Part shown: positions 1,985-40,306 of the stretch, piece by piece
Position numbering within the stretch: the stretch's first letter is position 1
Layout of the letters: the number at the start of each line of letters is the position of its first letter
NCBI RefSeq assembly: GCF_004168625.1
Contig: NZ_SDWW01000032.1
Span: 1-54,056 of the forward strand
Source of the DNA: Pengzhenrongella frigida
GTDB lineage: Bacteria > Actinomycetota > Actinomycetes > Actinomycetales > Cellulomonadaceae
Direction: 5' to 3'
Length of the DNA stretch: 54,056 nucleotides
Translations under genes and position numbers: made by a program
Notes under the pieces: model-generated
Database searches by the model: none
Told to the model about the DNA's origin: nothing
The model's input: the letters and a program-made list of their open reading frames with translations, nothing else

Positions 1985-2719
1985 ATGGCCAAGAAACTCC
2001 CTTCCCCCGGGCCGTTGCCCGCGGGGCAGCACCCTGGCTGCGACACGTCGGGGATGATCCTCGTCCATCGGATCTTCCGCTGGCTGTATCGGGAACTCCC
2101 CGAGCTGGTGCGCGAGGTCGAGCCCGGCGACACCGCACGCTCCGCGGTCGTCGGCCGCTACGCCCACCTCGACTTCTTCGCCCTGCACATGCACCACGAG
2201 ACCGAGGACATGGTGCTGTGGGACAGGCTGGAAGCACGCGAACCCGCCTGCACCCTGCACGTCGGTCAGATGCGAGCGCAGCACGCCGAGGTCGCGGTGC
2301 GGCTCGCACGGATCGAGCCGCAGCTGGCGCCCTGGGTGGTCACCGCCGATCCCCGGCTTCGCGAGGTCTTCGCCACCGACATCGAGGGTCTCCGCGACCT
2401 GCTGTCGGCGCATCTCGGGCAGGAGGAGGACGACATCCTCCCGGTCGCCGGGGAGGTGATGTCGCAGCAGGAGTGGGACTTCATGGAGGAGCACACCCGC
2501 GCCACCCTCATGGCGCACCGCAAGGAGCTCGGGAAGGACGTCATGTCGCTGCAGCTCGGCCTGCTGATCGCGAGCGTCCCCGAGGCCGAGCGAGAGGACT
2601 GGGTCCGCGCCAACGTGCCCGCCCCGATCCGGCTCCTGTACCTCCTCCTCATGAAGCGGAGGTACGACAGCGCGATGCGGGAGCTCTATCCCGACCGTCC
2701 CGTGCCCACGATGGTGTGA
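1985..2719 (+). CDS. Hemerythrin HHE domain protein
   Basis: A 244-residue predicted cytoplasmic protein with the spaced His/Glu pattern of hemerythrin-like cation-binding domains: H in LVHRIFRWLYREL, HLDFFALHMHHETED, MRAQHAEV and SAHLGQEEDDILPV. This family binds a di-iron centre and is linked to oxygen, nitric oxide or iron sensing and storage; the ligand here is unknown. The C-terminal third (about residues 160-244) is helical and outside the HHE core. The start at 1985 was chosen because GGAGG lies five bases upstream (1975-1979); a longer frame from 1922 has no such site. The SRPBCC gene follows 28 bp downstream on the same strand, so the two may form an operon. Confidence 0.8.
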   Translation: MAKKLPSPGPLPAGQHPGCDTSGMILVHRIFRWLYRELPELVREVEPGDTARSAVVGRYAHLDFFALHMHHETEDMVLWDRLEAREPACTLHVGQMRAQHAEVAVRLARIEPQLAPWVVTADPRLREVFATDIEGLRDLLSAHLGQEEDDILPVAGEVMSQQEWDFMEEHTRATLMAHRKELGKDVMSLQLGLLIASVPEAEREDWVRANVPAPIRLLYLLLMKRRYDSAMRELYPDRPVPTMV

Positions 2720-2747
2720 CGCGGCGACCGGCGAGGCGGAGGAACTC

Positions 2748-3203
2748 ATGTGGCGACGTGTGACGCTCGACGTCCATCTCGATCACCCGCCGTCGCGCGT
2801 GTACCCGTACTTCGCCGATCCGGGTCGGTGGCCCGAGTTCGCGCCTGCGGTCGACTCCCGCCGCCCGTTGGACAGCGGTCCGCTGCAGGTGGGGAACCGG
2901 TGGGCCGCTGTCGACCGCATCGGGCCGTTCCGGATCCGGTTCACCGACGTGCTCGAGGTCCTCGAGCACGACCGGCGGGTCGTGTGGCACTCGACCTCGC
3001 CGTGGAACTCCGGCGTCGAGTACGTGTGCACGCCCGACGCCGGGGGCACGCGCGTCCATGCCGACTACGGCGGCGACGTCGCCGCCTGGCTCCGGCTGGT
3101 GGCGCTCCTGCCGACCTTCGTGCTGGCGCGGATCCTGCTGCGCGACTTCACCGGCCTCCGTCGGGTGCTCGTGGCAGCAGACCGGGCTCGCTGCGAACCC
3201 TGA
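2748..3203 (+). CDS. SRPBCC-family protein
   Basis: A 151-residue protein of the START/Bet v 1-like SRPBCC fold (polyketide cyclase/dehydrase and lipid-transport family). The opening beta strand and helix (VTLDVHLDHPPSRVYPYFADPGRWPEFAP) and the later strand VVWHSTSPWNSGVEYVC fit the fold. These proteins bind hydrophobic ligands in a cavity, and the substrate cannot be read from sequence. The C-terminus (LLPTFVLARILLRDF) is hydrophobic. GGAGG precedes the ATG. The TGA stop (3201-3203) is the first three bases of the symmetric 68 bp repeat described separately, so the repeat provides this gene's stop. Confidence 0.72.
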   Translation: MWRRVTLDVHLDHPPSRVYPYFADPGRWPEFAPAVDSRRPLDSGPLQVGNRWAAVDRIGPFRIRFTDVLEVLEHDRRVVWHSTSPWNSGVEYVCTPDAGGTRVHADYGGDVAAWLRLVALLPTFVLARILLRDFTGLRRVLVAADRARCEP

Positions 3204-3268
3204 GATAGTCCATCGCGGTTGAGATAGTCCTTCGAAACGGACTATCTCAACGCTGAAGGACTATCTCG
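3201..3268. repeat. 68 bp four-module palindromic element, copy A
   Basis: Four copies of an 11 bp half-site lie on an exact 19 bp grid. TGAGATAGTCC is at 3201-3211 and 3220-3230; its inverse GGACTATCTCA is at 3239-3249 and, with one change, at 3258-3268. All four are symmetric about one axis between 3234 and 3235. The inner pair extends to a 12 bp perfect stem (3219-3230 with 3239-3250) with an 8 base loop. It sits between convergent genes (SRPBCC and ychF). A second copy is at 31311-31378. Confidence 0.9.
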
Positions 3269-3285
3269 AGGCCAGTCCTTGGCGG

Positions 3286-4371
3286 CTAGACGTTGAAGCG
3301 GAACTCCACCACGTCGCCGTCGGCCATGACGTAGTCCTTGCCTTCGATGCGGGCCTTGCCGGCGGCGCGGGCAGCGACGATCGAGCCGGTCTCGAGCAGG
3401 TCGTCGAACCCGATGACCTCGGCCTTGATGAAGCCGCGCTGGAAGTCGGTGTGGATGACGCCGGCCGCCTGCGGGGCGGTCCAGCCGCGGTGGATCGTCC
3501 AGGCCCGGGTCTCCTTCGGGCCGGCCGTCAGGTAGGTCTGCAGGCCGAGGGTGTGGAAGCCGACCCGCGCGAGCTGGTCCAGGCCGGGCTCGCCCTGGCC
3601 GCTCTCGGCGAGCATCTCGGCGGCCTCGTCGGGCTCGAGCTCGACGAGCTCTGCCTCGAACTTGGCGTCGAGGAACATCGCGTCGGCCGGGGCGACCAGC
3701 GCGCGCAGCTCGTCCTGCATCGCGGTGTCCGCCAGCCCGGCGTCGTCGGTGTTGAAGACGTAGATGAACGGCTTGGAGGTCATGAGCTGCAGCTCGGCGA
3801 CGCGGTCCGGGTCGAGCCGCGCGCCGGCCGCCCCCTGGGCGAGCGTCGTGCCGGCCTCGAGCAGCTTCTGGGCGCCGATCGCCGTGTCGAGCAGCTCCTG
3901 GGGCGCCTTCTTGCCGCGGACCTCCTTCTCGAGGCGCGGGATCGCCTTCTCGAGGGTCTGCAGGTCGGCGAGGATCAGCTCGGTGTTGATGGTCTCGATG
4001 TCGTCCTTCGGCGAGACCTTGCCCTCGACGTGGATCACGTCGGGGTCGGAGAACACGCGGGTGACCTGGCAGATCGCCTCGGCCTCGCGGATGTTCGCGA
4101 GGAACTTGTTGCCGAGCCCCTCCCCCTCGCTGGCGCCGCGCACGATGCCGGCGATGTCGACGAACGACACCGTGGCGGGCAGGATGCGCTCGCTGCCGAA
4201 GATCTTCGCCAGCTGGGCCAGGCGCGGGTCCGGGAGCGGGACCACGCCGACGTTGGGCTCGATCGTCGCGAACGGGTAGTTCGCCGCGAGAACCTGCGCC
4301 CGGGTGAGCGCGTTGAAAAGGGTGGACTTGCCGACGTTGGGCAGGCCGACGATGCCGATAGTGAGTGCCAC
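3286..4371 (-). CDS. ychF: Redox-regulated ATPase YchF (Obg-family)
   Basis: A 361-residue protein, the usual length for YchF/OLA1. The P-loop GLPNVGKS is at residues 9-16. The G3 region is FVDIAGIVRGASEGEGLGN. The fourth motif is FNTDD rather than the NKxD of true GTPases, in keeping with the ATP preference known for the family. The C-terminus holds the TGS domain (RAWTIHRGWTAPQAAGVIHTD is its start). YchF associates with ribosomes and is linked to the oxidative stress response. The start is a GTG at 4371, giving the canonical ALTIGIVGLPN opening. The gene converges on the SRPBCC gene across palindromic element A. Confidence 0.96.
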   Translation of the reverse strand: MALTIGIVGLPNVGKSTLFNALTRAQVLAANYPFATIEPNVGVVPLPDPRLAQLAKIFGSERILPATVSFVDIAGIVRGASEGEGLGNKFLANIREAEAICQVTRVFSDPDVIHVEGKVSPKDDIETINTELILADLQTLEKAIPRLEKEVRGKKAPQELLDTAIGAQKLLEAGTTLAQGAAGARLDPDRVAELQLMTSKPFIYVFNTDDAGLADTAMQDELRALVAPADAMFLDAKFEAELVELEPDEAAEMLAESGQGEPGLDQLARVGFHTLGLQTYLTAGPKETRAWTIHRGWTAPQAAGVIHTDFQRGFIKAEVIGFDDLLETGSIVAARAAGKARIEGKDYVMADGDVVEFRFNV

Positions 4372-26715: not shown

Positions 26716-26795
26716 GACAGCGAAGTCGACGAACCGGGAGAAGTGGTCGCCCTGACCCTCGGTCAGGCAGCCACTCCTCCCGGTTCGTCGCTGTC
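26716..26795. terminator. Large branched hairpin, probable bidirectional terminator
   Basis: Arms CGACGAACCGGGAG (26727-26740) and CTCCCGGTTCGTCG (26777-26790) pair perfectly. GACAGCG and CGCTGTC extend the base with a four-base bulge, and a second hairpin (CCTGACC with GGTCAGG) sits in the loop. It lies between the convergent greA and ilvA genes. Confidence 0.8.
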
Positions 26796-30473: not shown

Positions 30474-30603
30474 GGGAGCCAGGCTACGCGGACGGGCAGA
30501 CGGGAACACCCGTCGGGTCTGCGCGCGTTGCACCGGTCGAGCGGAACGCTCACGCGCCGGAGGCTGCAGCGGGCGCGTTGGTGTTGGACGGAAGGTGACG
30601 CAC

Positions 30604-31263
30604 ATGTTCGGATCGATGCTCAAGACGACGATGGTGGCCCCCGAGCGCGCGCTGCGCGGTCGGGACGGGTACGCGTACGAGATCCCGGCGACGCACGCCG
30701 TGCTGGGCACGTCGCTGCAGGGTCCATGGCCGGCCGGGACCGCCCAGCTGTTCCTTGCGATGGGGTGCTTCTGGGGCGCCGAGAAGGCGATGTGGCAGCT
30801 CCCGGGCGTGGTGACGACCGCCGTCGGGTACCAGGGCGGGTTCACGCCGTTCCCGACCTACGAGGAGGTCTGCACCGGCCAGACCGGGCACACCGAGGCG
30901 GTGATGGTCGCGTACGACCCGGCCGTGCTCTCGCACGAGGACCTGATCCGCGCGTTCTGGACGTCGCACGACCCGACGCAGGGCTTCCGGCAGGGCAACG
31001 ACTCGGGGACGCAGTACCGGTCCGCGCTGTACGTGACGCCCGAGCAGGAGGCCGCCGTCGAGGCGACCCGCGCCGCGTACCAGGTGGAGCTGACCCGCGC
31101 GGGCTTCCGCGCGATCACGACCGAGATCCGCCCGGCGGCCGAGGCGGGGACGTTCTACTACGCCGAGGAGTACCACCAGCAGTACCTCGCGAAGAACCCG
31201 AACGGCTACTGCGGGCTGGGTGGCACCGGGGTGTCATGCCCGATCGGGCTCACGAAGAGCTGA
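30604..31263 (+). CDS. msrA: Peptide methionine sulfoxide reductase MsrA
   Basis: A 219-residue MsrA that repairs methionine-S-sulfoxide. The catalytic Cys55 is in [37 protein letters not shown] and [19 protein letters not shown] are canonical. C-terminal cysteines in [13 protein letters not shown] are likely resolving residues for thioredoxin or mycoredoxin recycling. The 45-residue N-terminal extension is typical of the longer MsrA class. The ATG at 30604 is preceded by a GGAAGG site. The gene ends 47 bp before palindromic element B. Confidence 0.96.
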
Positions 31264-31310: not shown

Positions 31311-31378
31311 TGAGATCGTGCTTTCGCGCTGAGGTAGTCCTTCACGAAGGACTACCTCAGCGCAGAAGGACTACTTCG
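31311..31378. repeat. 68 bp four-module palindromic element, copy B
   Basis: The layout matches copy A. Half-sites start at 31311 (TGAGATCGTGC, diverged), 31330 (TGAGGTAGTCC), 31349 (GGACTACCTCA) and 31368 (GGACTACTTCG), each 19 bp apart and symmetric about one axis. The inner pair extends to an 18 bp perfect inverted repeat (31326-31343 with 31346-31363). The fourth half-site contains the TAG stop of the leftward Ddn-like gene (31371-31373). Confidence 0.9.
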
Positions 31379-31808
31379 GCCCGGGATCGCGCGGTTCGCA
31401 GACCACGACCGGGATCGGCCGGGTGGTCTTGGTCTGGTAGCCGGCGTAGCCGGGGTTGTTCGCCACCGCCGCGGCCCACAGCTCGACCCGCTCGTCGCCC
31501 TCGGCGGTGCGCGCACGCATCGGTCGGGGCACGGCGCCGCGCTGGACGACCACGTCGGGGTGGGCCACCAGGTTGCGGTACCACCCGGGATCGCGATCCG
31601 CGCCGCCGGCCGAGGCGATCAGGACGAGCTTGTCACCCACCACCGTCACCGCGAGCGGCGTGGTGCGCGCATGGCCGGTGGTGCGCCCGGTGGTGGTGAA
31701 CAGGACCTGCTCGAGGTGCCCGAGCCGGCCGCCGACCCGCCCGCCGGTCCACCGGAACACGAGCCCGTGCAACCGGATGACGAGCAGGGCGGCTCGGCTG
31801 ATCGCCAT
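31371..31808 (-). CDS. Deazaflavin-dependent nitroreductase-like protein (Ddn family)
   Basis: A 145-residue protein of the F420/FDOR-type split beta-barrel family. LEQVLFTTTGRTTGHARTTP, LVLIASAGGADRDPGWYRNL and VHAHPDVVVQRG-like segments match the Ddn pattern, in which the glycine-rich loop and YRNL contact the deazaflavin phosphate. It probably uses F420H2, but no F420 genes are in this window. An N-terminal hydrophobic helix may attach it to the membrane. The stop codon lies inside palindromic element B. The FKBP gene ends six bases beyond its start and may lie in the same operon. Confidence 0.85.
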   Translation of the reverse strand: MAISRAALLVIRLHGLVFRWTGGRVGGRLGHLEQVLFTTTGRTTGHARTTPLAVTVVGDKLVLIASAGGADRDPGWYRNLVAHPDVVVQRGAVPRPMRARTAEGDERVELWAAAVANNPGYAGYQTKTTRPIPVVVCEPRDPGPK

Positions 31809-38298: not shown

Positions 38299-39101
38299 GC
38301 ACCGGGCACGCCGCGAGCGGTCCTGCGGGACGCGATCCGGCGAGCGTCGCCGAGGCGACGGCCCCTCTGGGGGAGACTGCTCCGGTGGAGACTTCGCAGG
38401 CCCGGCCCGGATCGTCCGCCGGGCACCAGATCGGCCTTCTGCTGGTCGACGACCAGGCGCTGCTGCGGATGGGTTTCCGGCTCGTGCTCGAGGCCGAGGA
38501 CGACCTCGTCGTGCTGGGCGAGGCGGGTGACGGTGAGCGGGCCGTCCAGCAGGCCGTCGCGCTGCGCCCCGACGTCGTGCTGATGGACGTCCGGATGCCC
38601 GGGGTGAACGGGATCGAGGCGACCGAGCGCATCGTCGCCGCCCTGCCCGAGTGCCGGGTCATCATCCTCACCACGTTCGACCTCGACGAGTACGCGTTCG
38701 CCGGGCTGCGCGCCGGGGCGAGCGGGTTCCTGCTCAAGGACGCCCGCCCGGCCGAGCTCACCGCGGCGATCCGCACCGTGGCCGCGGGCGACGCCGTCAT
38801 CTCGCCCCGCGTGACGCGGCGGATGCTCGAGATGTTCTCCGGCTACCTGCCCGCGCCCGGCGATCTCGCCCCCGACGCAGGCGGGCTCGATCCCCGCCTG
38901 CGTGCGCTCACCCCGCGCGAGCTCGAGGTGCTGGGGACGATGGCCGAGGGGATGTCGAACGCGGAGATCGCCGACCACTTCGTGCTCTCGGAAGCCACCG
39001 TCAAGACGCACGTCGGGCGGATCCTGGGCAAGCTCCAGCTCCGCGACCGGGTCCAGGCCGTCGTGCTCGCCTACGAGTCGGGCCTCGTCCGGCCCGGCTA
39101 G
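38295..39101 (+). CDS. LuxR/NarL-family response regulator
   Basis: A 268-residue regulator. The receiver domain (about 46-165) has the acidic pair Asp52/Asp53, phospho-acceptor Asp98 in VVLMDVRMPG and Lys148 in FLLKDA. A NarL-type helix-turn-helix closes it (LTPRELEVLGTMAEGMSNAE, then ATVKTHVGRILGKLQ). The ATG at 38295 overlaps the kinase stop and gives an unusual 45-residue Ala/Ser-rich leader; a GTG at 38385 would give a shorter leader. Its TAG stop is part of CTAG (39098-39101), shared with the stop of the convergent prpC. Confidence 0.93.
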   Translation: MSTGHAASGPAGRDPASVAEATAPLGETAPVETSQARPGSSAGHQIGLLLVDDQALLRMGFRLVLEAEDDLVVLGEAGDGERAVQQAVALRPDVVLMDVRMPGVNGIEATERIVAALPECRVIILTTFDLDEYAFAGLRAGASGFLLKDARPAELTAAIRTVAAGDAVISPRVTRRMLEMFSGYLPAPGDLAPDAGGLDPRLRALTPRELEVLGTMAEGMSNAEIADHFVLSEATVKTHVGRILGKLQLRDRVQAVVLAYESGLVRPG

Positions 39102-40306
39102 CGCGTGGCCAGCTCGATCGGGACGGCCCGCTGCGGGACGCCGTCGTAGCTGCTCAGCGGCCGGATCAGCGCGTTGTGCGCGCGCTGCTCGGCGATGTGC
39201 GCGGTCCAACCGACGACGCGGGACATCACGAACATGGGCGTGAACATCTCGATGTTGAACCCCATGAGGTAGTACGCCGGCCCCGTCGGGAAGTCGAGGT
39301 TCGGATAGATCCCCCGCTCGGCGAGCATGGTCTGCTCCATCGCGGTGTACATCTCCGTCCAGCGCTCGCCACCCCCGACGACCGCGGCGGTGTCCCACAG
39401 CGCGGCTTTCATGGTCGGGACCCGCGAGTCCTCGTTCTTGTACACGCGGTGCCCGAACCCCATGATCTTGCGGTGCGCGGCCAGCTCCGCGCGCATCCAG
39501 TCGGCCGCCTTCGCCGGGTGGCCGATCTCCAGCATCGTGTGCATGACGGCCTCGTTCGCGCCGCCGTGCAGCGGGCCCTTGAGCGCGCCGATCGCCGCGG
39601 TGACGGCGCTGTACTGGTCGGACATGGTCGAGGTGACCACCCGCGCCGTGAACGTCGAGGCGTTGAACGAGTGCTCCATGTACAGGATCAGAGACGTCTC
39701 GAAGGCGCGCGCGATCTGCGGCGAGGGCACCGAACCGAAACACATGTGGAAGAAGTTGTCGACGTAGTTGAGCGACTCGTCCGGAGGGATCGGTTCCTGG
39801 CCGAGTCGGCGTCGATGGTCGATCGCGACCACGGTCGCGATCTGGGCGAGCAGCATCTCGCTCTTGCGCTGGTTGGCCGCCTCGTCGTAGGTGCCCGCGT
39901 CGGGGTCCTCCGTGCCGATCCAGCTCACGGCGGTGCGCAGCGTGTCCATCGGGTGGCAGCTGGTCGGGAGCAGCCGCAACGCCAGCATCAGCCCTGGCGA
40001 CAGTGCGCGACGGGGCCGCTGCATGGCCTGGAAGTCCACCAGCTCCTCGGGCGTCGGGAGCTCGCCGTGCCACAGCAGGTAGGCGACCTGCTCGAAGCTG
40101 CAGTGCGCGGTCAGGTCCTGCACCGCGTACCCGCGGTAGGTCAGCGAGTTGGTCTCCGCCATGACGTTTGAGACCTTCGTGGTGTCGGCGACCACGCCGG
40201 CGAGCCCGCGGTGGATCACCGGCTCCGTCGTCGCGCCGGTCGTGCTCGTCGTGCCGGTCGTGCCTGTCGTGCCTGTCGTCGCCGAAGCGTCCGCTGCTGT
40301 CGTCAT
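39098..40306 (-). CDS. prpC: 2-methylcitrate synthase / citrate synthase
   Basis: A 402-residue citrate-synthase-fold enzyme. In this operon it would join propionyl-CoA and oxaloacetate to 2-methylcitrate. Catalytic segments are GPLHGGANEAVMHTML (His), IMGFGHRVYKNEDSR (His) and NLDFPTGPAYYLMGF (Asp). The N-terminus has a low-complexity TTGTTGTTGTTSTTG stretch from a 9 bp DNA repeat (about 40239-40279), absent from the usual enzyme. It overlaps prpB (ATGA). It shares CTAG with the response regulator stop. Some actinobacterial homologues use acetyl-CoA as well. Confidence 0.93.
   Translation of the reverse strand: MTTAADASATTGTTGTTGTTSTTGATTEPVIHRGLAGVVADTTKVSNVMAETNSLTYRGYAVQDLTAHCSFEQVAYLLWHGELPTPEELVDFQAMQRPRRALSPGLMLALRLLPTSCHPMDTLRTAVSWIGTEDPDAGTYDEAANQRKSEMLLAQIATVVAIDHRRRLGQEPIPPDESLNYVDNFFHMCFGSVPSPQIARAFETSLILYMEHSFNASTFTARVVTSTMSDQYSAVTAAIGALKGPLHGGANEAVMHTMLEIGHPAKAADWMRAELAAHRKIMGFGHRVYKNEDSRVPTMKAALWDTAAVVGGGERWTEMYTAMEQTMLAERGIYPNLDFPTGPAYYLMGFNIEMFTPMFVMSRVVGWTAHIAEQRAHNALIRPLSSYDGVPQRAVPIELATR

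Follow-up and report, generated by a model that had tools for sequence, protein, structure and literature searches.

Short palindromes of a single design, each composed of four half-sites in the order + + - - on a fixed grid of about 19 bp, are dispersed over the chromosomes of Pengzhenrongella frigida and related actinobacteria, and members of the family flank genes for a group of nuclease-like proteins. Two such palindromes lie in the 54,056-nucleotide stretch analyzed here, which we call the window. Our best reading is that of a two-part system organized like REPIN/RAYT and served by an unrelated enzyme. At a rough probability of 0.6, each palindrome is a dispersed, non-autonomous copy of a repeat family whose cognate enzyme is an AbiEi-like nuclease acting by the mechanism proposed below. 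The features of the window on which this reading draws are as follows.

3201-3268, no strand: four-half-site palindromic element, copy 1, 68 bp (geometry, fold, profile model, shuffles)
3201-3211, plus strand: half-site 1, TGAGATAGTCC, whose TGA is the stop codon of the open reading frame 2748-3203
3220-3230, plus strand: half-site 2, TGAGATAGTCC (sequence match)
3239-3249, minus strand: half-site 3, inverted, GGACTATCTCA on the plus strand (sequence match)
3258-3268, minus strand: half-site 4, inverted, GGACTATCTCG on the plus strand (sequence match)
2748-3203, plus strand: SRPBCC-type gene, ending in copy 1 (open reading frame; Pfam Polyketide_cyc2)
3286-4371, minus strand: convergent gene that we take to encode a YchF-type GTPase, its end 18 bp from copy 1 (open reading frame, orthologues)
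31311-31378, no strand: four-half-site palindromic element, copy 2, 68 bp (geometry, profile model)
30595-31263, plus strand: peptide methionine sulfoxide reductase gene, upstream of copy 2 (Pfam)
31371-31808, minus strand: F420H2-dependent quinone reductase family gene, its end inside copy 2 (Pfam)

An earlier note on this DNA had described copy 1 as four half-sites on an exact 19-bp grid, the first of them opening with the stop codon of the SRPBCC gene. Both statements hold. The 11-bp half-sites start at 3201, 3220, 3239 and 3258, and the first three bases of the element (3201-3203) end the SRPBCC reading frame. One correction is needed for half-site 4, which reads CGAGATAGTCC on its own strand and therefore agrees with half-site 1 at 10 of 11 bases, the sole difference being the outermost base. 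The geometry also exceeds chance, as the note had supposed. Allowing at most one mismatch, GAGATAGTCC has 10 matches in the window against 1.72 expected, a number reached in 0 of 100 shuffles. A degenerate form of the four-half-site layout has a single match in the window, and 100 shuffles yield none. In single-stranded form, as RNA or DNA, copy 1 is predicted to form a near-perfect hairpin of -46.1 kcal/mol, with an RNA fold z of -9.3 and 0 of 200 shuffles equally stable. It fills the gap between two convergent genes, of which the second (3286-4371) has orthologues 88-91% identical in four congeneric genomes.

The second window copy suspected at that stage is likewise real. Its outer half-site contains the TAG stop of the minus-strand gene, and its neighbors are again convergent. 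A profile model built on 13 of the 14 copies in the source genome (G000; the congeneric genomes are G001-G004) gives 28 strand matches down to E 1.6e-12, which correspond to 14 copies because the symmetric element is matched on both strands; the next match has E 0.007. The family extends past the two window copies, and the 19-bp grid recurs across genera, as opposed to the isolated pair with random spacing and no relatives that would have spoken against a family. By eye, half-site position 7 is A or C throughout an alignment of 13 G000 copies, and in six of these it alternates as A C A C or C A C A, which would place A.G and C.T mismatches, not pairs, in the hairpin. Rfam searches at the elements (window 2700-3800 and 15 loci) gave only sub-threshold microRNA-type hairpin matches and none above the gathering score, which speaks against a known RNA family. 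A 64-bp imperfect palindrome of another family (CGACGAACCGGGAGAAG...) is present at 26727-26790 of the window.

Across genomes, the geometry is retained while the letters change. The G000 model matches 30 of 59 related genomes, and the best match in each has the same layout with different letters; within the genus it finds 52 strand matches (26 places) in G004 and none in G001-G003. A G000-specific pattern has 0 matches in the genome_contigs collection. We also used a geometry scan that is blind to sequence and scores + + - - equality alone. Most fetched loci have a spacing of 19, and some genera have 20 or 21 (e.g. G010, G024, G015; G007, G031). Shuffled sequence gave 0 matches in 300 kb; chance matches in real coding DNA occur at spacings d of 15, 18, 21 and 24, and at d 19/20 with a score of 24 there were 0 in 400 kb.

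The core-and-distance pattern YGAGNTNG-N11-YGAGNTNG-N14-CNANCTCR-N11-CNANCTCR identifies at least 119 stretches in a species-level genome collection. Among the 80 matches listed, the taxa include Oerskovia, Cellulomonas, Cellulosimicrobium, Sanguibacter, Promicromonospora, Actinotalea, Pseudactinotalea, Flavimobilis, Cryobacterium and unclassified Micrococcales/Actinomycetales bins. With at most one mismatch, 20 of 396 genomes of the order match at 1 to 43 places each, and a reversed-pattern control on the same 396 genomes shows 0 among the matches listed. Members of a single genus in this draw carry 41, 39, 9, 2 and 0 copies. Genomes that seem empty by the CGAG pattern use other letters, such as CCAGGTAGTCG in G188, GAGTCAGACCC in G251 and CGGCAGTTC in G006 and G030. 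Arrays with more than four half-sites also occur (L103:6718, L229:2861-2990, and L110 at about 3485-3600), and these keep the 19-bp period.

The half-site is the unit of the element. It has the core CGAGNTMG and is repeated directly at 19 bp, and the repeat extends past the core: in 126 distinct elements, direct identity at offset 19 is 0.88, 0.81 and 0.72 at half-site positions 9, 10 and 11, which the search pattern leaves unspecified, and falls to 0.35-0.54 beyond position 11. Position 7, also free in the pattern, is A or C only. The three-base tails of the half-sites agree at 0.80 within an element versus 0.31 between elements, and pairing across the palindrome is 0.68-1.00 in half-sites versus 0.49-0.79 in spacers, part of this gap being forced by the pattern. 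This conservation fits a putative bound site. When all variable half-site positions are considered (130 elements), agreement is 0.80 inside single elements, 0.68 among elements of the same genome and 0.38 across genomes, and the excess within genomes indicates that each genome has one or a few dialects of the half-site.

An all-against-all comparison of 1270 proteins encoded close to elements produced one telling cluster, of seven records (six distinct genes), and all seven directly adjoin an element. The G000 member lies outside the window, on contig C50.

C50, about 38812-39801: gene for an AbiEi-like protein with a Vsr/I-Bth0305I-like nuclease domain, with elements of the window dialect on both sides
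C50, 38603-38673 and 39816-39884: the elements flanking this gene

Elements likewise flank the G004 orthologue; there, a MerR-type gene separates the nuclease gene from the downstream element. A protein-alignment search of 34 genomes, picked to span element-rich and element-free examples, supplied 70 loci whose nuclease-gene flanks were scanned regardless of sequence, with start codons chosen by rule and with one doubly counted gene and three GC-run matches removed. Elements and nuclease genes are strongly associated. An element is present within 400 bp of 43 of the 52 strong homologues (E < 1e-40; 27 genomes), lying upstream in 32, downstream in 37 and on both sides in 26. The corresponding figure is 2 of 17 for weak, distant homologues, which come mostly from the same genomes and form an inner control, and 0 of 374 for control genes in 400 kb of G001-G003, a comparison limited by the fact that these congeners are element-free. 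The nine strong homologues lacking an element are at L307, L310, L312, L333, L322, L344, L347, L354 and L356.

This association persists at other thresholds. A stricter score of 26 leaves 33 of 52 homologues with an element (20 on both sides), and a more severe complexity filter, which also removes genuine repeats, leaves 36 of 52 (13 on both sides). The looser score of 22 gives 48 of 53 (32 on both sides), but this comes with eight control matches over 400 kb and includes a double count of one gene (L328 = L372). In a draw across the phylum, 26 of 296 genomes have homologues; when spacing was left free from 14 to 26, 11 of 29 loci had a match, and 9 of these 11 had a spacing of 19. In-frame stops, as in decaying genes, are seen in several nuclease homologues (L307, L329, L350, L352, L355, L358 and others).

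Dialects connect each gene with its own elements. For the 30 genes that have an element on each side, agreement is 0.81 between the two elements of a gene, versus 0.51 for elements of different genes and 0.48 for those of different genes in the same genome, and in 25 of the 30 the best match of a flank is its own partner. Of the five strong homologues in genome G062, four are flanked by elements of their own, and in one of these the two 71-base flanks are identical. Of the 24 dispersed dialects, 15 are seen three or more times next to a homologue of the genome that carries them; the other nine are without three matching half-sites at their own gene. Similarity of proteins is not correlated with similarity of half-sites (Mantel rho 0.04, with 273 of 999 permutations as high; n=39 genes, nearly all protein pairs being below 60% identity), suggesting that half-sites evolve too quickly for the protein tree to reveal it. 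This missing correlation counts against our reading, as do the nine strong homologues that lack an element and the nine dispersed dialects unmatched at their own gene. On balance, we consider it very probable that the repeats and the AbiEi-nuclease form one system.

The nuclease is modeled as an AbiEi-like DNA-binding region, occupying the first two thirds, fused to a PD-(D/E)XK domain of the Vsr/homing-endonuclease type. Pfam assigns AbiEi_4 to 7, AbiEi_1 to 4 and the MTES_1575 nuclease to 2 of 41 homologues, and PADLOC AbiEi models match five of five proteins. An AF2 model (pLDDT 93.8, pTM 0.90) was compared with known structures by Foldseek, in which the matches are individually weak: the front and middle resemble Rv2827c (1zel, E 6.3e-4) and AbiEi (6y8q, E 4.5e-3), and the C-terminal end resembles the catalytic domain of I-Bth0305I (3r3p, E 0.017, probability 1.00, TM 0.74 by target) and Vsr (1cw0, E 0.14). 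The catalytic residues of the nuclease domain look intact, with E218, D249, E260, D262 and K266 invariant in 41 of 41 aligned sequences. The portion of the AbiE report on which we draw (PMC7319586) describes AbiEi and Rv2827c as binding 23-bp inverted repeats in their own promoters, two pairs in the case of Rv2827c, and on that account the AbiEi-like part is the natural candidate for a reader of the half-sites.

We propose that the AbiEi-like part binds half-sites of its own dialect, and that the nuclease part would then cut or nick at the element. Repair or strand transfer might place copies elsewhere, at times moving the whole palindrome-gene-palindrome unit. Copies would survive chiefly just behind stop codons, by selection, as they should do least harm there, and the stops carried by the half-site (TGA, TAG) could even end a gene. 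Mobility, which would operate in trans, is the step of this scheme that we favor by a slight degree. The broadest form of the proposal, to which we give about even odds, is an undescribed two-part selfish element in which an AbiEi-Vsr-type nuclease recognizes its dialect of the 11-bp half-site and multiplies both the 68-bp palindromes, in trans, and its own gene with a palindrome on each side, in cis. Dialects would diverge fast enough for several separate systems to coexist in one genome, as the five genes of G062 would exemplify, and the palindromes would be reused as gene ends and stop codons.

Positions of the elements turn over between species. Only 3 of 13 G000 sites are common to G004, as judged from 20 loci with 23 of the about 26 G004 copies, and the SRPBCC/ychF junction occupied by copy 1 is not conserved in the comparison of orthologous sites. 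At the copy 2 site, the orthologous gap in G004 is 56 bp and without an element, versus 146 bp in G000; G001 is also without an element there, G003 has a hairpin of a different type and G002 an ordinary terminator-like hairpin. Flank identity at copy 2 is only 75-85%, and the exact borders of an insertion are therefore unreadable. A clean empty site at high identity was absent from the compared loci, and no target duplication was visible by eye in a non-systematic inspection of the 13 G000 copies. The earlier note had listed a non-autonomous mobile palindrome that lands at gene ends as one of three options. This is the best supported of them, given 14 dispersed copies, the convergent neighbors of 9 of 13 G000 copies, and the element-free site of copy 2 in G004 and G001. 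The nuclease genes at L273:3291 and L383 apparently occupy the same place (right flank 83% identical), and their downstream half-sites are quite different.

In the strongest rival, the flanking elements would serve the AbiEi-like protein as operators for autorepression. The dispersed elements would then be additional binding sites: sinks, roadblocks, or marks of self DNA by which the nuclease is restrained or guided, much as in a defence or addiction module. Ordinary recombination, and not the protein, would have spread them. This model ranks first because AbiEi proteins autoregulate and because a nuclease with many chromosomal sites of its own needs restraint. The AbiEi-like character of the protein (Foldseek, PADLOC) and the promoter binding described for AbiEi and Rv2827c (PMC7319586, as far as that source is drawn on here) agree with such a role, as do the upstream elements, whose distance from the chosen start ranges in many nuclease genes from a few bp to about 200 bp. 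Also in keeping with it is a pair of loci (L262:4857 and 7373 versus L265) in which two species share gene junctions whose elements differ in dialect. However, an operator would not require a second copy behind the stop codon, yet most strong homologues (37 of 52) have a downstream element. Moreover, up to 43 places per genome at the ends of host genes exceed what operators need, and most G000 places are not common to G004. We therefore regard autorepression with self-marking as rather unlikely, though it is the rival to be taken most seriously. In either case, the observations suggest a mobile or self-marking DNA system of a new kind.

Copies of the repeat family favor gene ends. Sixty copies in five genomes are distributed as 29 convergent, 26 tandem, 4 divergent and 1 called inside a gene; the 126 elements from named genomes include 50 between convergent genes, 52 in tandem and 5 in divergent settings, plus 7 called inside a gene and 12 at locus edges. 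In these loci, intergenic gaps that reach 80 bp number 67 convergent, 217 tandem and 102 divergent, and convergent positions are accordingly enriched among placed copies (50/107 versus 67/386, Fisher 2e-9). The median distance from stop codon to element is 34 bp, with 108 of 152 at 60 bp or less and 11 overlapping the gene end. The functions of neighboring genes offer no common theme, as a Pfam scan of 148 of 153 listed neighbor proteins revealed no recurrent family (at the top, ABC_tran with 6/148). On the single contig of G004 (C1), the 23 copies among the matches listed avoid roughly 0.92-2.47 Mb and are concentrated elsewhere.

Such positions, the very stable hairpin, and the fact that copy 1 is the sole hairpin between its two convergent genes are what one would expect of bidirectional terminators or mRNA 3′-end hairpins that are incidentally copied around. 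As intrinsic terminators, however, the elements do not qualify: the GC-rich hairpin is present, but a T-tract (at least five T in the next 10 nt) follows on only 1 of 214 element sides. The bidirectional terminator of the earlier note is weakened in this intrinsic sense, and hairpin-assisted termination independent of a T-tract could still take place. Furthermore, a hairpin requires neither direct repeats nor equal tails, half-sites pair better than spacers (about 0.7-1.0 versus 0.5-0.8), copy 2 sits behind another hairpin, and the nuclease gene is left unexplained. Termination as the primary role of the family is thus improbable. Less probable still are sites for a chromosome-organizing protein other than the nuclease: 14 to 43 copies with fixed geometry and conserved half-sites would suit one, but their distribution is patchy within genera (G000 and G004 but not G001-G003; 41, 39 and 0 copies in members of one genus), positional conservation is slight, and the nuclease is a better partner.

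Several other origins were considered. DNA uptake sequences are single copies in the hundreds, and G000 holds 53 GAGRTAGTCC against 25 of the reversed pattern. Phage or plasmid origin is contradicted by 0 matches of the geometry pattern in the viral_contigs collection and by the single weak record of the nuclease in plasmids and in phages (31.6% and 33.9% identity, respectively). Solo insertion-sequence ends and MITEs can carry repeated transposase sites, as in IS21 and Tn7-like elements, and resemble our palindromes in having two direct half-sites at each inverted end. No DDE-type transposon with ++ ... -- ends was present among the fetched loci, in which surviving matches are mostly coding repeats and arrays of more than four half-sites.

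The arrangement most similar to the proposed two-part system is REPIN/RAYT, to our knowledge the only well-described population of tiny bacterial palindromes with a dedicated single-copy enzyme. Shared features are extragenic palindromes in many copies, mostly downstream of genes, and a single enzyme gene flanked by the same repeats, with repeats and enzyme both varying by genome. According to the parts of the RAYT literature used for this comparison (PMC2817692, PMC3116915, PMC3733652), RAYT genes are flanked by two inverted REPs and co-evolve with them (PMC2817692). In contrast, the enzyme here is AbiEi-like with a PD-(D/E)XK domain and not Y1/HUH, and the repeat comprises four direct/inverted half-sites, spaced at 19 bp and sharing a CGAG-type core, instead of a short hairpin tagged GTAG/CGTC. 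The Y1 REP-associated transposase (PF01797) was found in 0 of 35 genomes, G000 and G004 among them, compared with 5 of 14 control genomes. The family is not a REPIN/RAYT member, because it lacks the defining transposase and its repeat has a different construction.

Two further systems each share one part of the protein. Type IV AbiE toxin-antitoxins have the predicted fold of its first two thirds, as PADLOC AbiEi models also indicate, and AbiEi proteins are described as binding multiple inverted repeats (PMC7319586, in the portion used). Unlike AbiE, which has a separate DUF1814 toxin, our protein has a C-terminal nuclease-type domain; its repeats lie also behind the gene and are dispersed over the chromosome, and they are 11-bp half-sites on a 19-bp grid, as against the 23-bp repeats given in that source. 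Homing endonucleases of the Vsr/EDxHD type (I-Bth0305I) share the C-terminal fold and the conserved acidic residues and lysine (41/41), whereas the gene here lies between two full palindrome copies and not inside a self-splicing intron. In the open-access literature, covered through titles and the beginnings of abstracts with subscription journals outside this scope, we encountered no link between DUF559/AbiEi-type proteins and dispersed palindromes.

If the proposed system is as we describe, it would represent a second, unrelated invention of a REPIN/RAYT-like arrangement, made in actinobacteria by joining an antitoxin-like DNA binder to a homing-endonuclease-like domain. It would suggest what a large group of so far unannotated AbiEi/DUF559-like proteins does, and would open to experiment the question of how repeats of this sort can spread with neither an HUH nor a DDE transposase. 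The natural series of matched protein/half-site pairs may also be useful for reading a DNA-recognition code. Finally, two congeners without the four-half-site family have repeated simple hairpins of their own, located at L284:8608-8678 and L285:6946-7002 in G003 and at L298:1217-1274 and L301:179-224 in G001. These hairpins are of the CGAGTGCGACGAAATC and AACGTCCGCACTC types, with two copies each in the sampled stretches.
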